The position numbers and the translations under genes were made by a program. A stretch of 64,000 nt of DNA from Gracilariopsis chorda. Taxonomy: Eukaryota; Rhodophyta; Florideophyceae; Gracilariales; Gracilariaceae. This document shows, one piece after another, positions 6,502 through 51,745 of the stretch. A model generated the notes under the pieces. It was not told where the DNA came from. It did not search any database and saw only the letters and a list, made by a program, of their open reading frames with translations. Numbering within the stretch: the stretch's first letter is position 1; each line of letters starts with the position of its first letter. Location: positions 1 to 64,000 of the forward strand of contig NBIV01000039.1 of NCBI GenBank assembly GCA_003194525.1, in the 5' to 3' direction.

Positions 6502-6517
6502 CTACGGCGAATCCGCG

Positions 6518-6579
<62 letters not shown>

Positions 6580-7289
6580 GCCGAATTGTTCTCGGATCAT
6601 TTCTTCCGGTGATACCGGTACAAAGTTTCCCGGTAACGGGTTCTCAGATTCATCTCGCGATGCGAGTAGTTCGTCAAAATCAGCATCCTCGTCCCAGGTT
6701 TCTGGCCTAGCCTCGACGGCACATTCCGGATCATCCGGGTCTATAGCCATGAAGCATGGGACTTCATCATCCTCGGTTGGGAGTGCTTCCCCACTTGTGG
6801 GTAACCGCGACAAAGCGTCGGCCTGGGTGTTCTGCGCACCCTTTTTATAAATGACTTGAAAGTCATATTCCGCGAGGCGGAGTCTCCAGCGCATGAGGCG
6901 TCCCGACGGGTCGGAGATATTCATCAACCACCTCAATGAGGAATGATCCGTGTACACGGTGAAGTGAATTCCCATAAGGTAGGGGCGCAGAGTGGTCATC
7001 GCCCATACGACGGCGAGGCACTCTTTCTCCGATACGGAGTAGTTCCGCTCATGAACATTGAGCGAGCGCGACCAATAACCAATTGGATGTCGTTCCCCTC
7101 GGGGGTGGTTTGAAAAAGAGCACACCCGACTTGGTAGTCGCTCGAGTCCGTATCTACGGAGTATGGCAACCCAAGTTTTGGGAGATGTAGGATTGGTGCT
7201 GATGTGACAGCCTCCTTTAAGGAGTTAAAAGCTTCCGATTGCTCGGGCGTAAATGTTCCCAGTTTTGGGGGGTTCCCCTTTCGCAACAA
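6502..7289 (-). pseudogene. gypsy RNase H with polyproline tail
   Basis: Two overlapping frames encode a Ty3-type RNase H: LRKGNPPKLGTFTPEQSEAF, then YSVDTDSSDYQVGCAL, and after a frameshift near 7110, PIGYWSRSLN, RNYSVSEKECLAVVWA, FTVYTDHSSLRWL and AQNTQADALSR. The reading then enters a spacer that translates the 60-nt homopolymer at 6519-6578 as a run of prolines. It is part of the pol of the 1801-12417 element and is not functional as it stands. Confidence 0.85.
6519..6578 (+). repeat. uninterrupted 60-nt poly-G tract
   Basis: Sixty consecutive G on the plus strand (C on the coding strand) lie inside pol, between RNase H and integrase. The exact length may be set by polymerase slippage or assembly. 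The tract could form G-quadruplexes. Confidence 0.9.
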
Positions 7290-7294
7290 CGCGT

Positions 7295-9319
7295 TCAGGG
7301 ACGCCGCAGTATCCGAAAAGTTCGGGATAAACCGTCGATAGACGTTGACCAGCCCCAGAAAGGAGCGCAGTTCCGTTTGAGTACGGGTTCTTTCGCCTCA
7401 ACGAGGGATTTGACTCGAGCTTTCTCGATCGCTAACCGTCCAGGACGGATAATGTGACCCAGATACTTCACAGTATCTGTGAAAAACTCGCATTTCCTCA
7501 AATTGAGGGTAATTCCCGCATCGCGGAGTACGGTCAGCACGTCTCGGACGTGAGTGAGATGGTCGTCCAACGAGTTGGAGAAGATGATAATATCATCAAG
7601 GTAGACCAGACAACTCCGCCACTTAAAGCGGTTGAGTAGAATATCTACTGCACGCTGAAAGGTGGCGGGGGCGTTGGTCAACCCAAATGGCATCCGCTTG
7701 AAGCGGTACGTTCCTGCGTGGCAGGTGAATGCGGTTTTGTCGCGATCCTCCTGTCTGACAGGTACTTGCCAATATCCCCAATTGGCATCAAGGGCCGTGA
7801 ACACGGTGGCGTCTCCAAGGGAGTCAATTCACTCGTCCATACGAGGGATGGGGTACGTGTCCCTAACAGTCACGGTATTGAGCCGGCGGTAGTCGACACA
7901 GAACCTCCAGGTTCCGTCGGCCTTTAAAGCCAGTACGACTGGGGATGCCCAGGGTGATTGAGCGGGCTCAATCACACCTGCGCGGAGCATCTTGTCCACT
8001 TGGGACTGCTCCTCTTCCCGAGCTTTCGGACCTGCCCTGTAAGGGGGTTGTGCAACCGGTCGCGCACCGGGGATTAAATCGATCCGGTGTTCCGTTGCAT
8101 TAATCTCGCCAAGCGAGCCATCCCACATTGTGGTGAATTACGGTAACATAGTACGGAGTTTGTCGCGGTGCGACTCTGGCACGTGGCTGAAGTCCAGCGC
8201 TTCAAGTGCTTTTTCCGGATCAATCCGGTCGTTGCTCGATGGAGCATTGTCCTGTGGAACAGGTGTGGTTCGCAATTCCGAGTTACTCGGTATGTTCGAC
8301 GCTGAAGTAGCGGTTTCCTCCCCCTCCTTAGACTTGACGTCTTCGGACCACGGGGCGAACTCCTCAGAAGAGGTGGTAACTCCAAGTACATCGGCGGCTG
8401 TCATCTTTGTTGGCAGCATTCCCATAGGATGGGGGGTTATACTCCCAATTACTTGGTGTTTTACCAGATACTGGGGGTGTTTGCCAAGGTTGGCAACCAA
8501 TATCCGGAAAGGGACATCCGGGGAAATGGAGACAATTCCATTAGCCAGTGCCAGCTGGGATTTCTCGTACAAAGAGGCGAGGGGTTGTATAACCCGAAGA
8601 CCGTGTTGACGGGAATTTACCTGCACCCAGACTTGGGACTCAGCCGGTATAGAAACCGAGGCAGCGACGCAGAGCTTGGTGGACTCGCGGGACGCGGACG
8701 GTGGTTCCTGCGCAGCAGGGAGCGGAACTTGTTTCCAAGAGGACCGCTTTAGCGGGCGGCGAACAATCGGAACCGACGATCCGTCGTCAAGTTCTACACG
8801 CCTGAGGCGGGGCCTGATTGCGTCGACAAATCTGTCGCAGTAATCACATCCCAGTATGACTGGTGCTGCCAATGAACGGCAAACGATGAAGTCCAACTTC
8901 ACCACAGAGGTACCAAGTCTCACGACGAGGTCCACTGTGCCCACCGTTTGTAATGGATTGTTATTCGCATCCGAAATGTCGGGGACCGCTTCAGAGCGGA
9001 TACGAGACCGCACAAGCGGGGGTAACAATGATTTCACAACAAAGTTGGGGCCTGCACCTGTATCCAGGACGGTGAGAAACCTCACCATAAACTGGGGATC
9101 AAGGCCAAGGTCGTCATAGACCTTATAATTACGCTTGGCCAAGACCAAAACTGTACCGGGGATCTGGGGATTTTTACTCCGTATCCACGGGCGACGCAAC
9201 ACACCGAGGTGCGCAGAGTCCGCGTCAGCGGTGTCTTTCCTCGAGAGGACTTTCACCGGGGAGCGAGGCGAGGACGCCTCGGGCGCCAACAGCCTCGTTC
9301 TTGAGGACGCCTCTCCCAA
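7295..9319 (-). pseudogene. gypsy protease and reverse transcriptase
   Basis: The protease has the retropepsin active site in FLTVLDTGAGPNFV and a later VILGCDYCDRF. After an in-frame TAA at 8138-8140 the same frame continues into reverse transcriptase: GVIEPAQSPWASPVVLAL, WRFCVDYRRLN and, past a second stop near 7829, FTALDANWGYWQVPV, MPFGLTNAPATFQRA and the catalytic YLDD box in LVYLDDIIIFS. The frame is lost near 7390, where the tail of RT moves into another frame. This frame differs from gag, as is usual for gypsy elements that need a frameshift. The product would be a cytoplasmic replication enzyme, but the copy is broken. Confidence 0.9.
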
Positions 9320-9336
9320 AGGGGAGACTCCCTCAG

Positions 9337-10950
9337 TTAGTTTCCCGCCTTCGGCGGTGGGTTGGTTTCCTCGACAACGAGTGCTTCATCCCGTTGACGG
9401 GGGTTTCTATCCGCATAAGCGGGGGTTGCAACGGATGGTTGCGTGATCTCCCGAATCGGGGTGTATGAAGCTTGCCGCGCACGCGGGGTCTGTGGTAGGG
9501 CATGGGAAAAGTCCGTTTTAGCACGGAGGTAGGAAGCCGTCGGGACGGAACGTTTCTCCTCTGGAGTGAGGGCCTCATAATTTGCCACCACCTTGGCCAT
9601 ATCCTTCAGTGAACAAATACACTGAGGGGAGGTATGGCCATGGGCATAGCACAGGTGGCAAATGAGAGCCAGCACCGCGACACGCGGATTATTATTCCGA
9701 GTATCGGAGAAGCGAACCGCAGGGCGGGTGTCAGTCCATCCAGGCCGTTGATAACGGGATTGACCGTTTGAAAACGGGAGTCGTTGGGGTTGAACCCGAC
9801 TGTTACCACTGTACAAAACGGGGTCTTCCGTTCCCGTATCACGGGTCATCTCCGTCGTTGACGGCAAATCACTGGTGGGTATCGACAAACCATCCCCCTG
9901 CACTAAATGCACGGTATCAAATCCCTGTCCAGGGTTCCCATCTGCGGCGAGCGGGAGAGAGGAAGCTTCGCTTTCCAGCAACAACGCCTTGGCGGATTTA
10001 GACCGATTGTTCGGAGTTCTTGCACGAAGTGCATCCCCTTCCGCTCGGGCGTGTTGGACCAGCTCGAGGTAGGTGATCCTCCGCTTGTCCTCCCGATAAC
10101 GGGGAACTGAACTCCGGATTGCCGGGTCAAGACCATCAATGAACATGGTACTGCGCTCCCCAGCGGGGTATACGTTACCACATCTGTGGAAAGCCTTGTT
10201 AAGGCGCACCGAGTAATCGGTCTCAGTCTCTCCAGCACGCTGGCGTGTATCTCGCAAAGCGAGGATAGCCTGCTGAATAGCGGTGTTGGTGGCGTAGGAG
10301 CGCAGAAGATACTGCACAGCCTCCGGCCAGCAAGTAACTCCTCCCTCGGAGGCGCGAGAAGATCCTCTGACAGAGGTGTATTGGTCCTCCGCCACTCCCC
10401 GTAAGAAAAACTTTAGAGCCAAGTAGGCTTGTCCCTCATTCATACCGAGGATATCGGCCTCCGCTACAAAGCGGGATAGGAAATCCAGTACTAGGAATGG
10501 GTCCTCTCCAGTAAAATACTGGTTGCGGAGCGAGAGCTGCATTCGCTTAATGCATTCTCGCACCTTTCCCGTACCACGGGGCGTACGTCCAAGTGACGAG
10601 TCTTCGAGCCGGTAGTACCGGTATGATAAAAGTTTCCGGTAATCCGGGTTTGTCGGTTTCAATCCCCGGAGACCGGGGTGTCTTCTCCCCTTCTGGCGGG
10701 TTCGGACCACACCTTCAGTGGCCGATGACCGCTTCGAGCGGGAGGAGTAGCCTCGCTTCTCGTCCTCCGAGTCGGAGTCCGAGGAGCTCGAGCTAACCGA
10801 ATGGTTTCGGGATGAGTCCGAGGATGTCGAAGAATCGGAGTCCGAATATTTTCGGTGGTGTTTCCGTCGATGACGGCGTTTCTTCTTCCCAGCAAGCTGG
10901 TCGTTGTGCGATACCTCGTTCACCGGATCATCCGGGGATGGTTTGTCCAT
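9337..10950 (-). CDS. gypsy Gag (capsid-nucleocapsid)
   Basis: An open frame of 537 codons from the ATG at 10950. A Lys/Ser-rich start (HRRKHHRKYSDSDSS) is followed by a Retrotrans_gag-like capsid domain around ADILGMNEGQAYLALKF and TETDYSVRLNKAFHRCG. A CCHC zinc knuckle follows, C-HL-C-YAHG-H-TSPQ-C, exactly CX2CX4HX4C. The preceding frame at 10920-11564 looks like its original N-terminus, so the true gag may be longer and frameshifted. Short hairpins persist inside the codons, for example five between 9345 and 9460. Confidence 0.85.
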   Translation of the reverse strand: MDKPSPDDPVNEVSHNDQLAGKKKRRHRRKHHRKYSDSDSSTSSDSSRNHSVSSSSSDSDSEDEKRGYSSRSKRSSATEGVVRTRQKGRRHPGLRGLKPTNPDYRKLLSYRYYRLEDSSLGRTPRGTGKVRECIKRMQLSLRNQYFTGEDPFLVLDFLSRFVAEADILGMNEGQAYLALKFFLRGVAEDQYTSVRGSSRASEGGVTCWPEAVQYLLRSYATNTAIQQAILALRDTRQRAGETETDYSVRLNKAFHRCGNVYPAGERSTMFIDGLDPAIRSSVPRYREDKRRITYLELVQHARAEGDALRARTPNNRSKSAKALLLESEASSLPLAADGNPGQGFDTVHLVQGDGLSIPTSDLPSTTEMTRDTGTEDPVLYSGNSRVQPQRLPFSNGQSRYQRPGWTDTRPAVRFSDTRNNNPRVAVLALICHLCYAHGHTSPQCICSLKDMAKVVANYEALTPEEKRSVPTASYLRAKTDFSHALPQTPRARQASYTPIREITQPSVATPAYADRNPRQRDEALVVEETNPPPKAGN

Positions 10951-13808: not shown

Positions 13809-15079
13809 GGTGGATCTGAGCTTAAGTGTTTGGCTAGGGAGGTCCACAAAAATGGTAATGGCCTCATGCCAGGCCTTCTATTCACCAATATCCAAGTTTC
13901 CTTTGCACGAGCGCGTTGTACTCTCTGTCAATCGCCTTTGCCCATCCACGCATAACTCTGGCTTCCTCAAAGTTCTTTGGGACTTTGTTAGGACCCATAA
14001 GATCTTTGAAGTGCGAGTGGGCGACCATACCGTGAGAAAGAGCAGCGTCGAGGTGTTCCTCGTCCTCTTCATTGATGTTCCTCTCGGCCTTCTTCCGTTG
14101 CAGAGAGGAGAAGTCCATTATTTCACCAATGGATGGGAGTTGTTCCCTACCCACGTTGAAGTCTTGTTCCCGGCACTTAATAACTTTCCGCATGGAAGGT
14201 ATGTAGATCCTGTATAGAGTTCTTGGGCTGTGCATGCCGACGCAGTGTCCAGGTACTGCTCGGGGTAACAACTTCTTGTTTGGTACGGTTTCGGATCTGT
14301 ATATAAATGCGTGACCTCTCTGTCCGAACTTCAATAAGTTGGAGAGGTCAGGCTTCTGCCCAAACCAGAGAGTAAACGGTATCCTCATTCCTACTCTGGA
14401 GTTAGGCAGCCGGTTGCGCAAGTAGTTCGAGTGAGAGATGGCTTCCTCCCATAGTTCGAGTGGGAGTTGAGAGGCGTGCAGGAGAGTTCGTGCCGTTCTC
14501 CACAAGTCCTGAATGATCTTCTGGGCAGCTCCATGTGATTGGTGTGCGTATAGAGGAGTATATTCGAGCATCATTCCGTTTTCCATTGCATACGTAATGA
14601 TGTCATCCGAATGGTTTTCACCCGCCCCATCAAGGCGAACGCGGTAAACTCGGTTAGGAGATACTTCGTTTTATGCGCAAGCCTTGTACCACCTGACTGA
14701 TTGAAAGACTTGGGCCTTCTGATCCAGGAGCTAAACGGAGCATACTCGGGTATTATCGTCCAAGAGAACCTGGATGTAGCGGGAGCCTTGTAATGAAGGC
14801 TCATTGATGGGACCTGTGAGATCCGTGTGAGTCACTTCCGGAGTGTGTCGGCTGTAGAAGTAGATTGCTGAAGAGGTGGGCGTCTCGAACCCGTTTCAAT
14901 GCACGGAGAGCAGTAAACATTATTGACTTCGGTTGGGGAGAGTTGAGGGAGACCTTCGCATAGTTCATGGCATGACAGCAGTCTATCCTTTCCCGTATAT
15001 CGGAGTTTATCGTGCCAATCTTTGACCGTTTGTCCTGGGGATTGCAGTAAATTTTGTGCACGTAGTGGGGGAACGGCAT
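13809..15079 (-). pseudogene. Ty1/copia integrase and start of RT
   Basis: In order down the minus strand: the integrase zinc/core junction (YCSPCIETG, HTDLTGPINEPS, YIQVLLDDNTR), then EYTPLYAHQSHGAAQ, which holds the catalytic Glu region equivalent, ISHSNYLRNRLP and TLWFGQKPDL from the GKK-type C-terminal half. The linker follows, then WAKAIDREYNALV and TWILV, the first RT block. Several frame changes occur, so it is a pseudogene. It continues the element from 15300-15855. Confidence 0.8.
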
Positions 15080-20364: not shown

Positions 20365-23300
20365 ATGCCGCCGCACTTTCATCCGGCATTGTCGGCGACT
20401 GTCTGGGATAACAAGAAACGAGTAGAGTCTCTTTACAATGACTTTCCCGACATCAATGTCTCTGCACCGGACTTTGACATCAAAAAGTATGTCGGTCTTT
20501 TGCGCGAGATACTCCACGCCGCAGATGTTCCGCTTCATCCAATCGCCACTACATGGGAGAGTCTGAGGTGTACTGTTCCGATTTCCACCAGTGGAGCCAT
20601 TGACACTGTCGTGTCATGTTTTACTGGCTTGGCTTCCGCGGTTTCGCATGGCTGCGCTCGTATCATGACTCCACATACATCTGGAAAACCGCCTTCAGCT
20701 AGTGTGCTACACGACGTATCTGGTTATCTACTTCCTGGACAGCTCTGCCTAGTTCTCGGCTCATCTGGTTCTGGAACAAGTCTTCTCCTCTCCCGTATAG
20801 CCGGTAGAGAAATGCCGAAAATCATACAAACGAGTGGGGATGTCTCATACCAAACTGTTTTCAATCCTGGGCAGGCCAAACCGGCTCATTTTACGAGATA
20901 CATTGGCCAGCATGACGTTCATATCCCCCAACTTACTGTTCGCCAAACCCTCGAGTTTGCAGCTGAATGCATCTGGCCGGCATGGATTCCACACGTCGAT
21001 GCGATTCGTAGAAACGAAGTCATCCTCACCGCTCGAGGTTTGGGTATTGAGCGCACGCTTGATACCATTGTTGGATCTGATATTTTACGTGGTGTCAGTG
21101 GTGGTGAGCGGAAGCGTGTGACCATCGCTGAGATGCAAATTGGAGGTGTTGCAGGTACTCTGATTATGGATAATTGGTCGAAGGGCCTTGATAGCGGCAC
21201 TACTTTGAGCATAACACAAGCTGTTCGTAGTTTTGCTGACGTTCTGAAAGGCTCTGCTTTGTTGTCTATGCAGGCACCTGGATCTGAGGTGTATTCATTA
21301 TTTGACACCTTGTGTCTTCTAGACCAGGGCCAGCTGTTGTACTTCGGACCCACGGGCGATGCTGAGGGCTACTTCAATAGCTTGGGCCTCTATCGCCCTC
21401 AACACCGATCTCTTCCAGATTTTCTTTCCACTATTGCAGATCCCCTCATCCAAACAGAATACCTCGATGGCCCGAATTCTCTGTTACAAGAACAAACCAC
21501 TGCACGTTTGGACACAGACAATCTTGCGACAAAGTTTCGGGAGAGCGAACATTTTGCCAAACTGCAAGATACTATAGCATCTGTGAAGGCTCAGCCTCGT
21601 GATGATACATTACGTCCCAAAGAACACATTGAGAAGATTGGTGCGAAACGTGTATTGCAGAGCCCGCGTTATCAGATTGCGGCACTTGCTCGGCGTCAGT
21701 GGCGTCACATTATGTCAATTCGAAGGAGTTTTCTTGCTGAAGTTTTACAGAACCTCGTCCTGGGCCTCTTGCTTGGTTCTATTTTCTGGCAATTGCCAGA
21801 CACGGCAGGCGGTGCCAACAGCAGAGGTGGTATACTTTTCCTGATACTCTTGTTGATAGGCCTCAGTTCGCTAGCAAAGATACCTGTCAGGTTTGAAGAG
21901 AAGGAAGTATTTGCAAAGCAAAAAGCAGCTTCCTTCTTTGACGCATGGCCATACCTCTTGACACAGGCCATCTTTGATTTCTGTCAGGAGCTTATCAAGA
22001 CAGCCGCACTTGTCATTCCAGTATATCTCATGGCAGGTCTGAACCTGGGTGGAAGCGCTCAGCGATTGCTTTATTGTTTGCTTATCATTGTTATGGTATC
22101 GCTGACGATGATCTCCATGACTAGATTTGTTGTAGCAATTTTTGATGATGCTGAATCGGCGAGCGGGTTTGCTGGGGTACTTACTATCGTTCTGGTACTT
22201 CTCAATGGATATTTGAAGACGCCGACAGAGATACAGGGCTATCTGATATGGATCTACTGGATTGACCCACTTCATTACGCGTTTGAGGCGCTTCTTATCA
22301 ATGAGTACGATGGTCTTAACTTCAAATGCACTCTGGAAGAACGAATTCCAGCCAACTCGAATATTCCAGCGGAGTTCCGCGTCTGTCCGGTAAGTACTGG
22401 GGAACAATACTTGGAAGATACGTTTGGTATCACCAATGACAAGATATTCCGACTTTACTTCTTTCTGGTGCTTCTGGGTTTCCAGGTTTTGTTCTTCTTG
22501 CTGTCCGCGTACACAACGGCACGGACGAAACCAAAGGGGCACCCGCAAAGAGAAATAAGTCAATCGAGTGCGAGCTCGGTGCGACCCAATGACAAAGACG
22601 CAGTGGCGATCGATGTCCAAAATAGTCCGTCACAAGGCCCTCATAAGAACCGGTTCACATTTACAGACATGAGCTATTCAGTTGATGATGGACGTAAAGT
22701 GTTACTGAACAAAGTGACTGGGAATGCGGTCGGTGGTAAGGTAGTTCTGCTGATGGGCGAATCCGGGGCGGGGAAGACTACGCTACTAGACGTGTGCGCG
22801 ATGCGGAAAACTCTGGGCAAAGGAACATCAGTTAGTGGGGAAGTGCGTCTGAATGGTCGAGTGTTGGATAAAAAGGCACTCGCTCACCTGTCAGGGTACT
22901 GTGAACAAAGCGACCTTCATGTGGAAGAAGCGACGGTGCGAGAAGCTTTGTTATTCAGCGCGAAACTTCGTCTTCCGAAGTCAATCACATTGAAAGAGAA
23001 AATGGACAAGGTTGAAAATGTTCTTGCAATGCTCCGTTTGGAACCTTACCAACATGTGCTGGTAAAGGCTTTGGGGGCCGGGGAAAAGAAATTGTTGACA
23101 ATGGGTGTGGAAGTTGTGACTGAACCGAAAGTGCTTTTCCTTGACGAACCGACCAGCGGAATCTCAAGCTCGAGTGCGATGACTGTTGCAAGAGCATTGC
23201 GGAGGATCGCTGAGACTGGGACATGCGTGGTGTGTACGGTTCATCAGCCCAGTGCGGAAGTTTTTGATATGTTTGACATGTTGCTGCTGTTGAAGCGAGG

Positions 23301-24492
23301 GGGGAAGGTTGTGTATTTTGGAGACATTGGGGAGCATGGAGCAACTCTGCGATCGTACTTTGAAGCTCGCGGGGCTGAACAAATGAACGAAGATGCGAAT
23401 GCTGCGGCGTGGATGTTGGACGTGATTTCGGATGAGAAAACAGACTGGGCGGAAGAGTGGCTACAAAGCAAAGAGAAGGAAGAGCAGGGCAAACAAACTG
23501 CAGAGCTTGCCGAAGGAGATGAGGACAGCAGCAACGGGTGGGGTGAAGACTTTGACACTCCTTCGTTTCCACGTCAGACGGTTGAAATGATCCGCCGTCA
23601 ATTCTGGCGCTACTGGCGTCTTCCGGAATACAACACGACGAGAGTTATGCTGTTGTTGATGATTGCGCTGATGATTGGACTACTGTTTCTTCGCGAGTTA
23701 TCTAACACGCAAACGGGGGCAATGCTAAGCTTTGCGGCGTTGTTTTTGACAGTTATTCCGAGCAATCTGTCGGCGCAGAATGTGATTCCGCCGACAACGA
23801 GCGGTCGGGCTGTGTTCTACCGCGAAATTGCAAGCGGGACTTACGAGACGACGGCGCATCACGTGGCGGTGGGACTTGTGGAACTGCCGTTTACGGTTGT
23901 GGCGACAACGGTTTTCGTGGTAGTATTCTACTTCATGGTAGGATTGACACCTGGTCGATTTGGATACTTCTTTTTGGCGTCGCAGTTGCTGTACTTGTTT
24001 ACTGTTGTGTTGGGGGTGATGCTTGCCAGCGTGACACCGACTGCTGCTTTTGCTGAGAATCTGGCTAATTCGATATTATCGTTGTTCAATGTGGTGAGCG
24101 GCTTTTTCATTCGGAAGGATGAGATGCCGTCTTGGTGGAGGTGGAGCGTGTGGGTGAACCCGTTTAGCTACTATTTGTCTGGACTTGTGCAGAACGAGAT
24201 GGAGAATAAGACGTTCATTTGCGAGGCTGGGGAGTTTGGATTGTTCAGAATCCCGGATGGGGTTTCGGATTGCGCAAGTATTGCTGGCGGGGTTTATGAG
24301 AATGTTGTGGAGAATGGGGTAATTACTGCGTGCCGTTTCTGCCCTGTTCCTACTGGACAGACTTTAATCGATTTGTACGCGGCCGACGAGGTGAACAAAT
24401 GGCTGTCGTTGGTTGCGGTTGTAGTAGCGATTGTGATATGTCGACTTGTTACGGGCTTCGGGTTTGCGAAGCTGCGCTTCATGACGCGCTAG
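20365..24492 (+). CDS. PDR-type full-size ABC transporter (ABCG)
   Basis: 1375 residues in one exon, a full NBD-TMD-NBD-TMD export pump, usually in the plasma membrane and exporting lipophilic compounds. NBD1 has a degenerate Walker A, GSSGSGTS (132-139, Lys replaced by Thr138), Walker B-like IMDNWSKGLDS, a canonical signature VSGGERKR (from 244), and Gln in place of the H-loop His (SMQAPGSE). NBD2 has canonical Walker A GESGAGKTT (798-806), Walker B VLFLDEPTSG and H-loop TVHQPSAE, but its signature is degenerate (LGAGEKK, 903-909). Only one composite ATP site is complete, as in fungal Pdr5. Membrane segments follow each NBD. The open frame extends upstream to a TTG; the first ATG was chosen. 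Confidence 0.93.
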   Translation: MPPHFHPALSATVWDNKKRVESLYNDFPDINVSAPDFDIKKYVGLLREILHAADVPLHPIATTWESLRCTVPISTSGAIDTVVSCFTGLASAVSHGCARIMTPHTSGKPPSASVLHDVSGYLLPGQLCLVLGSSGSGTSLLLSRIAGREMPKIIQTSGDVSYQTVFNPGQAKPAHFTRYIGQHDVHIPQLTVRQTLEFAAECIWPAWIPHVDAIRRNEVILTARGLGIERTLDTIVGSDILRGVSGGERKRVTIAEMQIGGVAGTLIMDNWSKGLDSGTTLSITQAVRSFADVLKGSALLSMQAPGSEVYSLFDTLCLLDQGQLLYFGPTGDAEGYFNSLGLYRPQHRSLPDFLSTIADPLIQTEYLDGPNSLLQEQTTARLDTDNLATKFRESEHFAKLQDTIASVKAQPRDDTLRPKEHIEKIGAKRVLQSPRYQIAALARRQWRHIMSIRRSFLAEVLQNLVLGLLLGSIFWQLPDTAGGANSRGGILFLILLLIGLSSLAKIPVRFEEKEVFAKQKAASFFDAWPYLLTQAIFDFCQELIKTAALVIPVYLMAGLNLGGSAQRLLYCLLIIVMVSLTMISMTRFVVAIFDDAESASGFAGVLTIVLVLLNGYLKTPTEIQGYLIWIYWIDPLHYAFEALLINEYDGLNFKCTLEERIPANSNIPAEFRVCPVSTGEQYLEDTFGITNDKIFRLYFFLVLLGFQVLFFLLSAYTTARTKPKGHPQREISQSSASSVRPNDKDAVAIDVQNSPSQGPHKNRFTFTDMSYSVDDGRKVLLNKVTGNAVGGKVVLLMGESGAGKTTLLDVCAMRKTLGKGTSVSGEVRLNGRVLDKKALAHLSGYCEQSDLHVEEATVREALLFSAKLRLPKSITLKEKMDKVENVLAMLRLEPYQHVLVKALGAGEKKLLTMGVEVVTEPKVLFLDEPTSGISSSSAMTVARALRRIAETGTCVVCTVHQPSAEVFDMFDMLLLLKRGGKVVYFGDIGEHGATLRSYFEARGAEQMNEDANAAAWMLDVISDEKTDWAEEWLQSKEKEEQGKQTAELAEGDEDSSNGWGEDFDTPSFPRQTVEMIRRQFWRYWRLPEYNTTRVMLLLMIALMIGLLFLRELSNTQTGAMLSFAALFLTVIPSNLSAQNVIPPTTSGRAVFYREIASGTYETTAHHVAVGLVELPFTVVATTVFVVVFYFMVGLTPGRFGYFFLASQLLYLFTVVLGVMLASVTPTAAFAENLANSILSLFNVVSGFFIRKDEMPSWWRWSVWVNPFSYYLSGLVQNEMENKTFICEAGEFGLFRIPDGVSDCASIAGGVYENVVENGVITACRFCPVPTGQTLIDLYAADEVNKWLSLVAVVVAIVICRLVTGFGFAKLRFMTR

Positions 24493-39313: not shown

Positions 39314-40771
39314 ATGGTTTCAAACACACTCCAGGAGCATTCTGCTTCTACCGAGACTTCATGGGGCCTGCCCTGGGAGGACGTTTTCGCCGCTCTTCGA
39401 CCATCGCCGGATGAGATCAACTTATACAAGTCAATCATCTCTCAAGTGGAAGATGTACTTAAAGATGCACACTTACCCCACAATCTTTTCCCCGGTGGTT
39501 CCTTCGGAAAGAAGACTCTCACAACCGGAGAAAACAAGCTGCAACTTTTTTCCATCTATGACGATTTTCAACCTGACAACTATTTCGAGGTTCATCTCAA
39601 GCCCATGATGGCTGCTTTGAAGTCCGCAAACGTTTTCTCAGACCTGAAGGAGAACGGCTTAGCTGCTGTGTTCAACAAGGATGGAATTGAAGTGCGTATC
39701 CTCGCAGCTGGGGTGTTATATGGCGGGCCCAAAGATCTGCTTCTTCCGCTTAAGGAAAACGAGAAGCAATCTGGGGAAGTATTGCCAGACATTCTCCGAG
39801 GTCAGCAAATAGCACGTGAAGTTCATGTAGAAACCACTTGTGGTGTTCTGCGCTCACAGGTTATTGCGAACCAGTGTCCTTTATATCACGATATGGTGCG
39901 TTCCGCGAAGAAATGGAGATCAACATGCGATTTTATATCGTCAGCCGATATGCCTGGAGATTATCTCATCGAGCTGCTCATGCTTGAGGCTTTCACGGGA
40001 GCCCCGTGTATGCCGCGCGGACCTGGCCTATATTCAACTACTATGCGTCGGTTTCTGTCCTTAGCTGCTGCGCAATGTGGCTCTGGTTCTGATGTAATGG
40101 CTGACGACAGCATGCCAAAGTCAATGCTGTGGTGGGACAGGTATTACAATCGAGGAACTATTGATTTGTGCATGGCTAAAGGCTTGCTTGATGTGGGGCG
40201 TAGCGATCTGTGCTCAATTATCGTCGTAGACCCAGCTGTCCCATTTGTTAATGTTGCTCGTTCCGTACCAGACTGGTCAGAAATGAGAAAGTGTGCCAGA
40301 GATAGCTTGAGCAGTTTCCAGAACACCGACCTGCTTGATAGCCTGGATCATCGTCTTCGAGCACTGAGTGAAGGCATGCTTGACACCGTCAACGGAATGC
40401 GGAACCAAATCGAAGCATTGCAGCTATTAGTGAATTCTCCAAGGCGATGGTCTGGCGCCATACAATTCAATGAAGTGCATATGAACAGTGATGCATGGAC
40501 GAAAGTCATGGAGGTTGAATTACAGACAGTTAAGTGGAGGATAAATGCGAGAAAAGCTAGAACGGAAGGTACAGGATACACCTCATGTGTTGATATAAGT
40601 TTGCAACGGATAGGAAAGAAACTTGAGCGAACGATTGATGTGGATGTGCTTTTCAGGGGTGGGACGAGCAACTTAGTGTTCGATGCGGATGTTGACCACG
40701 TACTCATCTGCAGGCGCTCCGAGATCGTGAGGAATAGAGACTACTCGATACAAGTCACCATAGTTGGCTAA
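39314..40771 (+). CDS. OAS-like nucleotidyltransferase-fold protein without catalytic aspartates
   Basis: 485 residues from the first ATG, with no intron. The P-loop-like motif GGSFGKKT (61-68) matches the GGSxGKxT motif of 2'-5' oligoadenylate synthases. A helical domain with CPLYHDMVRSAKKWR (188-202), GDYLIELLMLEAF and IIVVDPAVPFVNVAR (302-316) matches OAS1_C blocks (LIRLVKHWY, ALELLTVYAW, VILDPAxPTNxV). The catalytic Asp positions hold Lys75 and Gln77 (GENKLQLF in place of GRSDADLV), and the third holds Arg128 (IEVRILAA for VEFDVLPA). The Lys of the donor-binding AKKW is kept. The last ~120 residues form an extra, beta-rich region unknown to me. I infer a cytosolic pseudoenzyme, comparable in logic to human OASL, that may bind RNA or nucleotides. 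A divergent active enzyme is less likely. Confidence 0.75.
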   Translation: MVSNTLQEHSASTETSWGLPWEDVFAALRPSPDEINLYKSIISQVEDVLKDAHLPHNLFPGGSFGKKTLTTGENKLQLFSIYDDFQPDNYFEVHLKPMMAALKSANVFSDLKENGLAAVFNKDGIEVRILAAGVLYGGPKDLLLPLKENEKQSGEVLPDILRGQQIAREVHVETTCGVLRSQVIANQCPLYHDMVRSAKKWRSTCDFISSADMPGDYLIELLMLEAFTGAPCMPRGPGLYSTTMRRFLSLAAAQCGSGSDVMADDSMPKSMLWWDRYYNRGTIDLCMAKGLLDVGRSDLCSIIVVDPAVPFVNVARSVPDWSEMRKCARDSLSSFQNTDLLDSLDHRLRALSEGMLDTVNGMRNQIEALQLLVNSPRRWSGAIQFNEVHMNSDAWTKVMEVELQTVKWRINARKARTEGTGYTSCVDISLQRIGKKLERTIDVDVLFRGGTSNLVFDADVDHVLICRRSEIVRNRDYSIQVTIVG

Positions 40772-41552
40772 CACTATGAACGAAAGAGTGAGGATGGTAA
40801 AACCCATCAAGAGGGATATCAAAGATATTATATTTCCCACAGGAAACATCGTTTCGCCGATTGAACTGCGGATGCTATGTTTACAAGTGAGGTTTCAGAT
40901 GCCCTTGGTGGATGTACACTCGCGCGTTTTCGCAGCTTAGCAAACTTCAACAAAATAGGAACCAACCGTTATCACAGACAGGAAGATTGCGCTGTCTTGT
41001 TATGATGACTCACCGGAGAGACCAATAGGAGCGACACTTCCGTTCACTATGGGAGTTCGATTGTTTGCGTCCCTTGCAGGACGTGTCAAAAAGCATAGCT
41101 TCTGATCGTAGCGGAGTCAAATTGTTACATGTTGATCCTGACCTGGAAAAGTCATGTTCAGTGGAGCAAACAGAGCAAGATCGAGCCTCGCTGGTACGGG
41201 TAGTTAATGATACATCGCTTGGATTTCGAAAGACCCGGAAACACGTTTAAGACAGAAAGTCAGTTGCTGCATCGAAGAGTAAGCCATAGGGCGATCCTCA
41301 CACGAGCCTCAGAAAAGCCGAACGCGAAGATGCTGTACGGAACAAAAGTACGGAAAAGCGAAGTGACCATCCAAAATACTTTGAAAAGCCCATTAGTCAA
41401 GTTCTACTTCGATAAGGGCGAACAGATTGCCAACTTCGAAGTGGAAAGGTATTGGGACGCAAAAGGCTGCCACCAGATAAAATTATGAACGCATGAGTTG
41501 CCCTTATCGGTATACAGAGGTGGATTGTGCTGAACGATATTCTTGCGTTGAG
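40772..41552. other. intergenic, convergent
   Basis: The tail-to-tail gap between the OAS-like gene and the RING gene. No gene recognised. Confidence 0.4.
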
Positions 41553-42258
41553 CTAGAATGTGGTAATGATCACGGCAATGAAGACCGTTAGCAGCAGGAA
41601 AATCTTGGCAACTGCGATAAAGAACAGAAGTGTGAACAGTTATGTTAGTCTTTTGCTTGTGCTGGCTGAATACGTCATGTTCGTAGTTAAAAAACGTACC
41701 TATATCGGGTAATCCGTCTTCCTGCTCATTTTGTTGAGGTTCCTCCCTCGGGGGTTCGTTCATATGGGGATAAGCGATTTGCATACCAAAAAGATTAGGG
41801 AAGAAACCGAAAGCTGATAATCCAACGTTTTCGTAGCCTGCGCCATATGGGTTGAAACGACCGAAGGTGGGATGATGTACTCCAAAGTGTGGCACGCCCG
41901 GCATACCTCTGGGAGGCTGCTCTCGATGCCCTGAAGGCCTCGGCGGAACTCCCTCTTCGTTTCTAGCACGAGAGCTAGAGCCCCCACGGCCGTAAATGGG
42001 GATGACTGAGCTGCGGGAAATGGCGGCTTTGCAAACTGGACATTGCGCGTTCTGGCCTTGCATCCGCAACCATCTGAAAAGGCACGGCCAGCAGTAGAGA
42101 TGTCCACAGGGGGTCACGACTGGCTCGCGAGGAGCTTCGAGGCAGACGTGACATTCGAACAGATTTTCCTCTTTCTTCTCCGTCACTTCTGAAGAAGTAG
42201 CAGTTGATGTTTGCCGCGCTTGCGTGAGATGCTCTGGGACGCTGTTATTCGTTGCCAT
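41553..42258 (-). CDS. membrane RING E3 ubiquitin ligase, RNF5/RNF185 (RMA) type
   Basis: Two exons, 42258-41700 and 41611-41553, give 205 residues. The 88-nt intron has donor GTACGT, a branch-like GACTAACATAAC and acceptor TTTATCGCAG. A C3HC4 RING (CHVCLEAP, TPCGHLYCWPCLFRWL, CPVCKAA) lies near the N-terminus, followed by SVIPIYGRG, which is typical of RMA proteins. A Pro/Gly-rich middle ends in FGFFPNLFG. Exon 2 adds a C-terminal hydrophobic anchor, IVAKIFLLLTVFIAVII, then stops, as in RNF5/RNF185 (about 180-190 residues). Such ligases work at the ER membrane in protein quality control. Read without splicing, the frame runs on for 80 unrelated residues and loses the anchor. The start is the ATG at 42258; the upstream frame begins at TTG. 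Confidence 0.85.
41612..41699 (-). other. spliceosomal intron of the RING gene
   Basis: 88 nt with GT..AG ends. Removing it turns a nonsense C-terminus into the expected membrane anchor. It is the best-supported intron in the window. Confidence 0.8.
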
Positions 42259-47930: not shown

Positions 47931-48584
47931 CTAGGAGTAGAATGAAAGAAGCCTAGTGAAGTCGCCAGTAATTTTTTCAAACCAGTCGGCGGTTCTGTCA
48001 ATCTTCTTAGGCGTTCTTTGACCACCCTTTTTCAAAACAGCCGCGACTTCAAGTTCACTGATATCCTGAATGATTCCACGTACAATCTTATCTGTCTCAG
48101 TTTGCGATTGCTCATCAATCGCCTCGTTGACAACGTTGAGGGCGTTTCGCAGTTCGGAGATGCTGACAAGATTTCTTACAGAGGGGGTCAAATCAAGTTG
48201 TGGATTTTCCTTGAACTGGAGGTAAAGCTGAGCAATCTTTGTGTCATACTCTTTCAGTTTCTTGAGAGCGGCTTGCCCCTCCTTTGTTTCGATTACGGAT
48301 TTGTCCACTATGTTCTCGGACGGTTTTAGCGCGTCGGGGGCGTTGAAACCCACCTTGGGGAAAAGAACTTTGCTAAAGGCGCGTTCAAGACCCTTTCCGA
48401 TGTTGGCGGAGGCGGGGCTCGGAAGTGCGGCGGCGAGAAGCGCGGCTGTGACGGCTGCTGCACCGGATAGGAGGTCGCGACGAGACACGCGTTGCTGGGG
48501 TGTCGGTGGGGTTGCCGAGCACGTCACTGCGCTGTGGGCGCGACGTTGGGTGGTAGGGAGCAGCGGAACGTTGACGAATGCCAT
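47931..48584 (-). CDS. thylakoid lumen PsbQ'-like photosystem II protein
   Basis: 217 residues from the ATG at 48584. A bipartite leader has a transit part rich in Thr/Pro, then a twin-arginine signal SRRDLLSGAAAVTAALLAA ending in SPASA. The mature part (ANIGKGLERAFSKVLFPKVG...) is about 150 residues, helical and Lys-rich, with DLTPSVRNLVSISELRNALN and TADWFEKITGDFTRLL. This matches the size, targeting and helical-bundle character of the red-algal PsbQ' extrinsic subunit that stabilises the oxygen-evolving complex. Family assignment is by pattern, and another lumenal PsbQ-family protein is possible. It is convergent with the S1 gene. Confidence 0.65.
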   Translation of the reverse strand: MAFVNVPLLPTTQRRAHSAVTCSATPPTPQQRVSRRDLLSGAAAVTAALLAAALPSPASANIGKGLERAFSKVLFPKVGFNAPDALKPSENIVDKSVIETKEGQAALKKLKEYDTKIAQLYLQFKENPQLDLTPSVRNLVSISELRNALNVVNEAIDEQSQTETDKIVRGIIQDISELEVAAVLKKGGQRTPKKIDRTADWFEKITGDFTRLLSFYS

Positions 48585-49450: not shown

Positions 49451-51745
49451 ATGGGAATCCCAAAGATGTTTCGGTTCCTCACGGACCGCTATCCCCTTAT
49501 ACTGCAGCGTCTCGACGAAGACCATGTCTTCGACTACTTTTATCTCGACATGAACGGCATCATTCATCAATGCACCCATCCGAGCGATTTCGAAATTGCC
49601 ATCGAGAATCTCGATGAAATGTTTGCCAGAATATTCGAGTACACCGAGCGCCTATTCAGAATCGTGTCGCCGCGACAGCTTATGTTTCTCGCTGTAGACG
49701 GCGTCGCCCCGCGCGCGAAAATGAATCAACAAAGAAGTCGACGATTTCGATCCGCAAAAGAGGCGGAGCGCAACATGGCCGACGCAATTGCTCGCGGCGA
49801 GGAAATTCCTCCCGGAAAGCGTTTTGATTCCAACTGCATCACCCCTGGCACCCAGTTCATGTTCGACCTTTCCGAACGCTTCAGGATTTGGATCCATCAG
49901 AAAATGACCTCCGACCCGGCCTGGCAGCAGGGTTGCACAGTTGTCTTCTCCGGCTCGGAAGTCCCGGGAGAAGGCGAACATAAGATTATGGATTTCATTC
50001 GAAAGTGGAAGGTGTCACCTCAATACAGCCCTGAGGTAAGACACTGTATGTATGGACTGGATGCTGATCTCATGATGCTTGGCTTGGTCGCCCATGCACC
50101 CCATTTCACCCTTCTGCGCGAAAAGATCAAGTTCAAGAAAAGCCAGCGCAAAGTTCCAGTCATGACTGGCACCGATAGCGACGCCGATGAATTCCAGCTG
50201 CTTGAGATCGCAATGCTGAGAGATATGCTCTTCCTCGAGTTTAAACGAGATGATGGACGCGAACCGTGGACGCATTTCAAGTCACGACGCCGTCCATCTC
50301 AACTTGAAAAGAATGCCTTCATGGCCACTTTTTCGTCCAGCGAATCCACCTCGCCTTCTGAAGGGCAGCCGTCAGGCGCCTCAAAGAAGAAAGCTCCTTT
50401 CGAATATGATTCGCGACGTATTGTGGATGATTTTGTGTTCATGTGTATGCTGGTTGGAAATGACTTCATTCCTAATATTCCGCATCTTGATATTGCGGAA
50501 GGCGCCATCAATTTGATGTTTCGTATATACAAGCACATGCTTCCAACTTGGGGAGGGTATCTAACTCAGGGACATAGGTTGCACCCCGAACGCTTGGAAT
50601 CTTTTTTGGGTAGAATCTCTCAGAGCGAAACACAGTACTTTGAACATCGTTCCGAGACAGATGGCGTGCCTGAGTACAGCACTATTGACTACCGCCGCAA
50701 ATACTACGAGCTCAAATTCGGGTTCGATGTTGAAGCCGACGATAGCCATGCACAAGTCAAGTCTCTGCGTAAGATCTACATGGAAGGCTTGCACTGGGTC
50801 CTTCAGTACTATCACAACGGTGTACCGTCATGGAATTGGTTTTATCCTGATTTCTACGGAATACTTGCCAGCGATATGAAGAACCTCAGATCGATCAAGG
50901 TGACTTTTCAGAAAGGAAAACCCTTTCGGCCTCTGACACAACTAATGGCCGTGTTACCTCCCGAGTCGGCAGATCTTCTACCAAATCCGATGAAGGAGCT
51001 CATGATTAATCCCAATTCGCCAGTCTCGAGGTTCTACCCTATTGAATTTGACGTTGATCAAAATGGGAAACGCAACTCATGGGAAGCCGTTGTCGTCGTT
51101 CCATTTATTGATGAGAGGAGCCTCTTGCGAGAGGTGAACTCTATCGATAAAGAAAGGGAACTGACAGATATGGAGAAACTGCGCGACAAGACAGGGCTCG
51201 AAAACAGGTTTCATGCCAGGGACTATCCAATATCTGAGATGAAGATTATGCCAGTGCGGCCGTCTAAGTACTACATTCCGAGAGATATTCGGTCTAGGAG
51301 CCCATCGCCAAGCAGCACGCGGTCAAGGACTTCCAGATCCAGTTCGCCTCGGAGATCCCCCTCCCCGCGAGGGATGTCACGACAACGACGATCAGATACT
51401 TCAAGTTCCAAAGATCAGAGTACAAAGATACCCAGCAAGTCATCTGGAAGGTCCACATCGCCTTCAGGGGATACACTAGTCGGATCTCGGTCTTCTTCGA
51501 AAAGAACTCGTTCTTCATCCCGGACTGGAAGCGCAGATCAGCTGCAACCACGCGCAACACGAAGTAAAAGCCCAAAACCTAGTACCGCGAAGGGGCGATC
51601 AGTGCGACAGAGGAGCGGTCTTGATTCAATCCACCACAGGACAACGCCTGACGGCAAAGGAACAATGCCAAATCCTCAAAACGCACCGAAGGGGCCTGGG
51701 CGCCCTACTAAGCAAAAGTCAGGGGACCCATCCTCACGAGAATAG
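49451..51745 (+). CDS. XRN1-type 5'-3' exoribonuclease with RS-rich tail
   Basis: 764 residues in one exon. The start MGIPKMFRFLTDRYP is the XRN1 N-terminus (XRN2 starts MGVPxFFRWL). Catalytic acidic motifs are present: YLDMNGIIHQCTH, VVFSGSEVPGEGEHKIMDFI, YGLDADLMMLGL and MLVGNDFIPNIPHLD. The conserved second region follows (GLHWVLQYYHNGVPSWNWFY). After about residue 615 the protein turns into an Arg/Ser-rich tail (SRSPSPSSTRSRTSRSSSPR), then ends. The PAZ/Tudor, winged-helix and SH3-like domains of XRN1 (about 1700 residues) are absent, and no XRN2 zinc knuckle is seen. It should degrade 5'-monophosphate RNA. The RS tail hints at nuclear or speckle localisation. Confidence 0.9.
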   Translation: MGIPKMFRFLTDRYPLILQRLDEDHVFDYFYLDMNGIIHQCTHPSDFEIAIENLDEMFARIFEYTERLFRIVSPRQLMFLAVDGVAPRAKMNQQRSRRFRSAKEAERNMADAIARGEEIPPGKRFDSNCITPGTQFMFDLSERFRIWIHQKMTSDPAWQQGCTVVFSGSEVPGEGEHKIMDFIRKWKVSPQYSPEVRHCMYGLDADLMMLGLVAHAPHFTLLREKIKFKKSQRKVPVMTGTDSDADEFQLLEIAMLRDMLFLEFKRDDGREPWTHFKSRRRPSQLEKNAFMATFSSSESTSPSEGQPSGASKKKAPFEYDSRRIVDDFVFMCMLVGNDFIPNIPHLDIAEGAINLMFRIYKHMLPTWGGYLTQGHRLHPERLESFLGRISQSETQYFEHRSETDGVPEYSTIDYRRKYYELKFGFDVEADDSHAQVKSLRKIYMEGLHWVLQYYHNGVPSWNWFYPDFYGILASDMKNLRSIKVTFQKGKPFRPLTQLMAVLPPESADLLPNPMKELMINPNSPVSRFYPIEFDVDQNGKRNSWEAVVVVPFIDERSLLREVNSIDKERELTDMEKLRDKTGLENRFHARDYPISEMKIMPVRPSKYYIPRDIRSRSPSPSSTRSRTSRSSSPRRSPSPRGMSRQRRSDTSSSKDQSTKIPSKSSGRSTSPSGDTLVGSRSSSKRTRSSSRTGSADQLQPRATRSKSPKPSTAKGRSVRQRSGLDSIHHRTTPDGKGTMPNPQNAPKGPGRPTKQKSGDPSSRE

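Follow-up and report, generated by a model that had tools for sequence, protein, structure and literature searches.

A single gene of the red alga Gracilariopsis chorda encodes a protein in which the fold of the 2'-5'-oligoadenylate synthetases (OAS) carries an incomplete metal site and is followed by a long predicted helix and a C-terminal domain predicted to have the TRAF/MATH fold. The gene lies in the window analysed here, a stretch of 64,000 nucleotides (positions 1 to 64,000 of contig NBIV01000039.1, assembly GCA_003194525.1). With moderate confidence, we read its product as an OAS-superfamily pseudoenzyme of red algae that was rebuilt as a self-associating adaptor composed of an OAS shell, a coiled coil and a TRAF/MATH-like domain.

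The reading frame is open over 485 codons from an ATG start, and about 6e-7 frames of this length are expected from the base composition of the window. End-to-end alignment of the window protein gave 87% identity with its relative P0002 (485 amino acids) and 70% with P0003 (486 amino acids) from Agarophyton chilense. As these full-length members are collinear with the window protein, the sequence as it stands represents an intact, intronless gene, and neither an intron nor a missing exon has to be assumed. This confirmed the clean, intronless 485-codon frame of the original prediction, which had been made from the DNA sequence alone. Searches of the organism's own assembly (91 Mb, 1081 contigs) with the window protein and with the divergent relative P0030 both matched this locus alone.

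A search of 5.8 billion proteins yielded a family of 38 proteins at expectation (E) values <=1, the window protein included. Its species-named members come from three red seaweeds, Agarophyton chilense, Gracilaria domingensis and Chondrus crispus, from which we infer that the family is red-algal; the G. domingensis member carries the NCBI name "2'-5'-oligoadenylate synthase". An alignment-based second search returned 37 proteins, every one already known, and a scan of IMG/VR with the family profile (A1) found no relative. When the C-terminal region of P0006 was used as query, 70 candidates were scored and 16 kept, namely 15 known members and P0039, which has the OAS part as well; among proteins sharing 5-residue words with the query and having 0.55-1.75 times its length, the C-terminal domain was not found outside the OAS context. 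No intact OAS paralog was seen in the own genome by a six-frame, exon-by-exon and non-exhaustive search, in which the seven NTP_transf_2 loci looked by eye like five poly(A)/uridylyl polymerases, one Pol-X type enzyme and one frame with a cupin-like tail, none of them resembling OAS. Scans of the same genome for PF10421, Mab-21 and STING gave no match anywhere, their controls included, and the one sub-threshold SMODS match appeared by eye to be a gag-like retroelement frame.

The assignment to OAS is based on both sequence and fold. The P-loop GGSFGKKT (residues 61-68) and the conserved DPA stretch (VVDPAVPFVNV), which the original prediction had named, are both present, and its proposed check against the OAS1_C family also turned out positive: at E<=1, 36 of the 38 members matched PF10421, with 8.4e-7 as the lowest value, though the window protein alone scored 15.1 bits, below the Pfam cut-off of 19.9. 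For OAS2, the family profile gave an E value of 1.9e-15 over the entire tandem chain and 2.1e-4 for the best single stretch; for OAS1, the corresponding values were 2.7e-8 and 2e-4. A narrower 14-member profile (A3) recovered these OAS chains too, scoring them less strongly, and a single-sequence search of the PDB with the window protein found only a chance proteasome match (E 1.5). OASL and OAS1 tied as best in the fold comparison. The protein combines the Pol-beta-like nucleotidyltransferase core with the OAS helical domain, as members of the OAS superfamily do, and resembles OAS1, OAS2 and OAS3 over residues 13-343 in its fold, P-loop and OAS1_C features. Placement in the TUT, PAP or NF45 families instead was rejected for its poorer Z scores and E values.

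NF45 and NF90 contain an OAS-related nucleotidyltransferase fold that serves protein complexes and is joined to other accessory domains. The window protein matches them in fold and could be a pseudo-nucleotidyltransferase scaffold of that kind, binding nucleotide or an RNA end in housekeeping RNA metabolism and using its C-terminal domain as a dimer or ribonucleoprotein contact. We regard this as unlikely, since OAS proteins are closer both in structure and in sequence (the profile matched NF45 only with an E value of 1.3) and the DZF domain was not recovered, DZF_N matching just one of the 38 members at E 0.21.

The HMMER alignment sets Lys75 and Gln77 of the window protein opposite D75 and D77 of OAS1, two of its metal ligands. 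The third ligand position is presumably Arg128, placed by its strand context (EVRILAAG) against the corresponding OAS strand. Thus the window protein does not have the three metal-binding carboxylates of a 2'-5'-oligoadenylate synthetase. Of 34 family rows, 2 have Asp and 1 has Glu at position 75, and 17 have Asp and 3 have Glu at position 77; position 128 is never acidic in 33 rows (Arg in 26, Ser in 4, and His, Thr and Phe in 1 each). The metal site is incomplete in all 33 rows that cover the three columns; the remaining 5 of the 38 rows, P0004 and four fragments, are incomplete there. The original prediction that all three aspartates are replaced therefore holds for the branch of the window protein and fails for the family, in which only the third site lacks an acid throughout.

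Could the protein still be an active nucleotidyltransferase that uses other acids as metal ligands? The P-loop is kept (Gly65 in 33 of 34 rows; Lys66 in 29, with Arg in 3 more), position 77 is acidic in 20 of 34 rows, and candidate ligands are offered by partly conserved core acids (Asp or Glu) at positions 73 (71%), 92 (88%), 113 (79%), 123 (71%) and 141 (88%). Against this stand the third position, at which Arg predominates and no row has an acid, and the window protein itself, which has no acid at any of the three sites. Moreover, on a tree of 35 rows, in which the long branches P0030 and P0037 are joined, possibly falsely, the acid at position 77 (21 of 35 rows, P0039 included) required 5 changes, and branches with good support make at least 3 of these unavoidable; with Asp alone counted, 7 changes were required and 5 forced. 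Such repeated change is what loss of function at this position predicts, although the tree alone cannot separate gains from losses. Retained catalysis thus appears highly improbable.

Other features of the nucleotide site are well kept. Arg196 (window numbering) is present in 37 of 37 rows and Lys or Arg199 in 36 of 37, which form the nucleotide-site Arg/Lys pair, and an aromatic residue (Phe or Tyr) occupies position 64, corresponding to Phe70 of OASL, in 27 of 34. According to PMC4446440, Phe70 of OASL, like Phe or Tyr in PAP, is linked to RNA-independent ordering of the active-site helix N4, active OAS having Ser, and the third carboxylate of human OASL is likewise replaced, by Thr152. The window protein shares with human OASL (PDB 4xq7) the OAS fold, an incomplete triad lacking the third carboxylate, a Phe at the P-loop site linked to the ordering of helix N4, and an extra C-terminal module. 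The earlier proposal that the OAS fold is kept without the chemistry, as in OASL, agrees with these results.

This likeness raises the alternative of an OASL-like sensor, in which a dead OAS domain still binds viral double-stranded RNA (dsRNA) and the C-terminal module relays the signal. The groove residues R45, K63, K66, R196 and K200 of OASL (numbering of PMC4446440) were mapped by HMMER alignment, at the level of sequence only. They correspond to K, N, P, S and A in the window protein, so one of five positions is basic, whereas OASL keeps the groove; OAS1, OAS2 and OAS3 also differ from the window protein, which has little of the dsRNA-groove signature, no complete metal site and an added C-terminal part. 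Across 33 family rows, 0 to 4 positions are basic (highest in P0008; six other rows have 3), with a basic residue at the position of OASL K66 in 1 of 34 and at that of OASL R196 in 0 of 37. The OAS part is also acidic, with net charges of -7 (nucleotidyltransferase part) and -3 (OAS1_C part) in the window protein and family medians of -5 (30 rows) and -4 (35 rows), respectively. A dsRNA sensor therefore seems improbable, and dsRNA binding in the lineage of the window protein is doubtful. The role as RNA-binding sensor or decoy suggested originally found no support in the window protein, some relatives having up to four of five basic positions; RNA might still be bound through a different surface. 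Chemistry and the known groove both seem to have decayed, to a degree that differs by branch. P0008 represents an intermediate state with Asp75 and Asp77 kept, Arg at position 128 and four of five groove positions basic.

Behind the OAS part, residues 336-372 of the predicted helix show the coiled-coil periodicity, which was equalled by 1 of 2000 shuffles (10 of 2000 for residues 343-372); the helix part 322-345 is not periodic, 1354 of 2000 shuffles being as periodic. At E<=1, 7 of the 38 members matched HSBP1, with 7e-5 as the lowest value. The beta-rich C-terminal domain noticed originally was confirmed at residues 372-485. Modelled alone, it reached a predicted local distance difference test (pLDDT) score of 92.4 and a predicted template modelling (pTM) score of 0.85. 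TRAF, MATH and SIAH structures accounted for 48 of the 50 VIA matches listed and for all of the top seven rows from Foldseek, and a MATH protein and a BTB protein headed the matches in a viral structure library. The domain is thus predicted to have the TRAF/MATH fold, an eight-stranded TRAF-like beta-sandwich, and a likely counterpart exists where the original prediction knew of none.

This resemblance is one of predicted structure. No MATH family was among the 21 to which at least one of the 38 members gave a match at E<=1, and residues 372-485 alone gave no Pfam match and no MATH at E<=10. Comparison by hhalign with five MATH loci of the own genome gave at most 0.2% probability, the MATH-to-MATH controls being strong in only 2 of 10 cases and weak in 8 of 10. 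The predicted sandwich is shared with the TRAF-like domains of TRAF, SPOP, USP7 and SIAH proteins, and in TRAFs, too, the TRAF-like domain sits behind a coiled coil. Unlike these proteins, the window chain matched Pfam models for neither RING nor BTB, zinc finger or protease domains and is in this respect not a TRAF protein; sequence similarity to them is not detectable, and its domain is shorter (114 amino acids).

Conservation along the protein is uneven. From a total of 66 columns that are >=97% identical, 27 fall among the 114 positions of the C-terminal domain, more than in any other block; in OAS1_C, one block of 90 positions holds 12 and another of 80 holds 11, the nucleotidyltransferase blocks hold 2 of 20 (residues 61-80) and 6 of 60 (81-140), and the N-terminal block 1-22 holds 4 of 20. 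The mean share of the majority residue is a tie between the C-terminal domain (0.69) and OAS1_C residues 171-260 (0.70). The window protein and the Chondrus protein agree at 71% of positions in the C-terminal domain; the value falls to 55% for OAS1_C and to 40% for the nucleotidyltransferase core. This protein-level pattern suggests purifying selection that is strongest on the C-terminal domain and the OAS1_C body and weakest on the catalytic groove. Being single-copy and strongly conserved, the gene does not resemble one caught up in an arms race.

Taken as a self-associating adaptor, which is the simplest mechanism, the protein would dimerise or trimerise through helix 322-374, and its MATH-like domain would recognise a short partner motif, a mode of binding known from the MATH domains of other proteins; binding of short peptides is described for the TRAF6 MATH domain in PMC9597381. 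The OAS shell, with its P-loop and Arg/Lys pair kept and an aromatic residue at the OASL Phe70 position, would serve as a constitutively ordered platform and may bind nucleotide or protein. It would make no 2'-5'-linked oligoadenylates, and dsRNA binding in the manner of OAS1 would be improbable. The likely output would be complex assembly, possibly linked to ubiquitin or defence, rather than a second messenger. Human OASL may be regarded as a functional analogue with other C-terminal modules, its two ubiquitin-like domains standing where the window protein has the coiled coil and the domain predicted to be TRAF/MATH-like.

The original prediction considered OAS to be known mainly from animals, which conflicts with the report, in PMC10732462, of the OAS superfamily in 8 of 12 eukaryotic supergroups. 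Red algae and Chondrus are not mentioned in the main text of that paper; its figures and supplements may hold red-algal sequences. No literature on a red-algal OAS or on an OAS-MATH/TRAF fusion (OAS-coiled coil-MATH) was found among the matches listed, a coverage from which subscription papers are largely missing.

The features of the gene and its surroundings are compiled in the table. The RING-finger gene and the OAS-like gene lie tail to tail, about 630 bases apart. The G+C content of the Ty3-like stretch is about 0.55-0.57, compared with about 0.45-0.47 around the OAS-like gene.

Table. Positions of the OAS-like gene, its parts and neighbouring features in the window.
Feature	Position	Strand	Remarks
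OAS-like gene, putative pseudoenzyme	39314..40771	+	485 aa, intronless; sole match found in own assembly
Nucleotidyltransferase (Pol-beta-like) core	39353..39763	+	residues about 14-150; P-loop GGSFGKKT at 61-68
Codons 75-77 (Lys-Leu-Gln), first two metal-ligand positions	39536..39544	+	HMMER alignment to OAS1
Codon 128 (Arg), presumed third metal-ligand position	39695..39697	+	acid in 0/33 family rows
OAS1_C-like helical domain	39785..40339	+	residues about 158-342; R196/K199/W201, DPAVPFVNV; PF10421
Single predicted helix	40277..40435	+	residues 322-374; 336-372 with coiled-coil (3.5-residue) periodicity
TRAF/MATH-like eight-stranded beta-sandwich (predicted)	40427..40768	+	residues 372-485; structure model, Foldseek, VIA
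Ty3-like retroelement pieces	6502-10950	-	frames resembling RNase H, protease and gag (by eye)
Copia-like integrase/polyprotein fragment	13882-14586	-	by eye
PDR-type ABC transporter frame	20365-24489	+	intronless, 1375 aa; ABC2_membrane 4.1e-85
RING-finger E3 ligase gene	41407-42258	-	zf-C3HC4 E 1e-11; RNF5/RMA-like by eye
PsbQ-like protein	47934-48584	-	E 2e-4, under Pfam cut-off; N-terminus transit-peptide-like by eye
XRN-type 5'-3' exoribonuclease	49451-51742	+	XRN_N 7.9e-91

OAS proteins are usually regarded as enzymes; in this family the OAS fold persists with an incomplete metal site and carries a TRAF/MATH-like module, just as a dead OAS was separately fused to ubiquitin-like domains in animals. 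One can speculate, as a tentative possibility, that red algae evolved a second dead OAS sensor-adaptor independently of animal OASL, uniting an OAS shell, a coiled coil and a TRAF/MATH domain in a single chain and acting in a stress or antiviral pathway without a nucleotide messenger. If true, a sensor fold of the CD-NTase world would be wired straight to a TRAF-type recruiting domain. Should the adaptor role hold, antiviral or stress signalling in red seaweeds, farmed Gracilaria included, would become testable through one gene.
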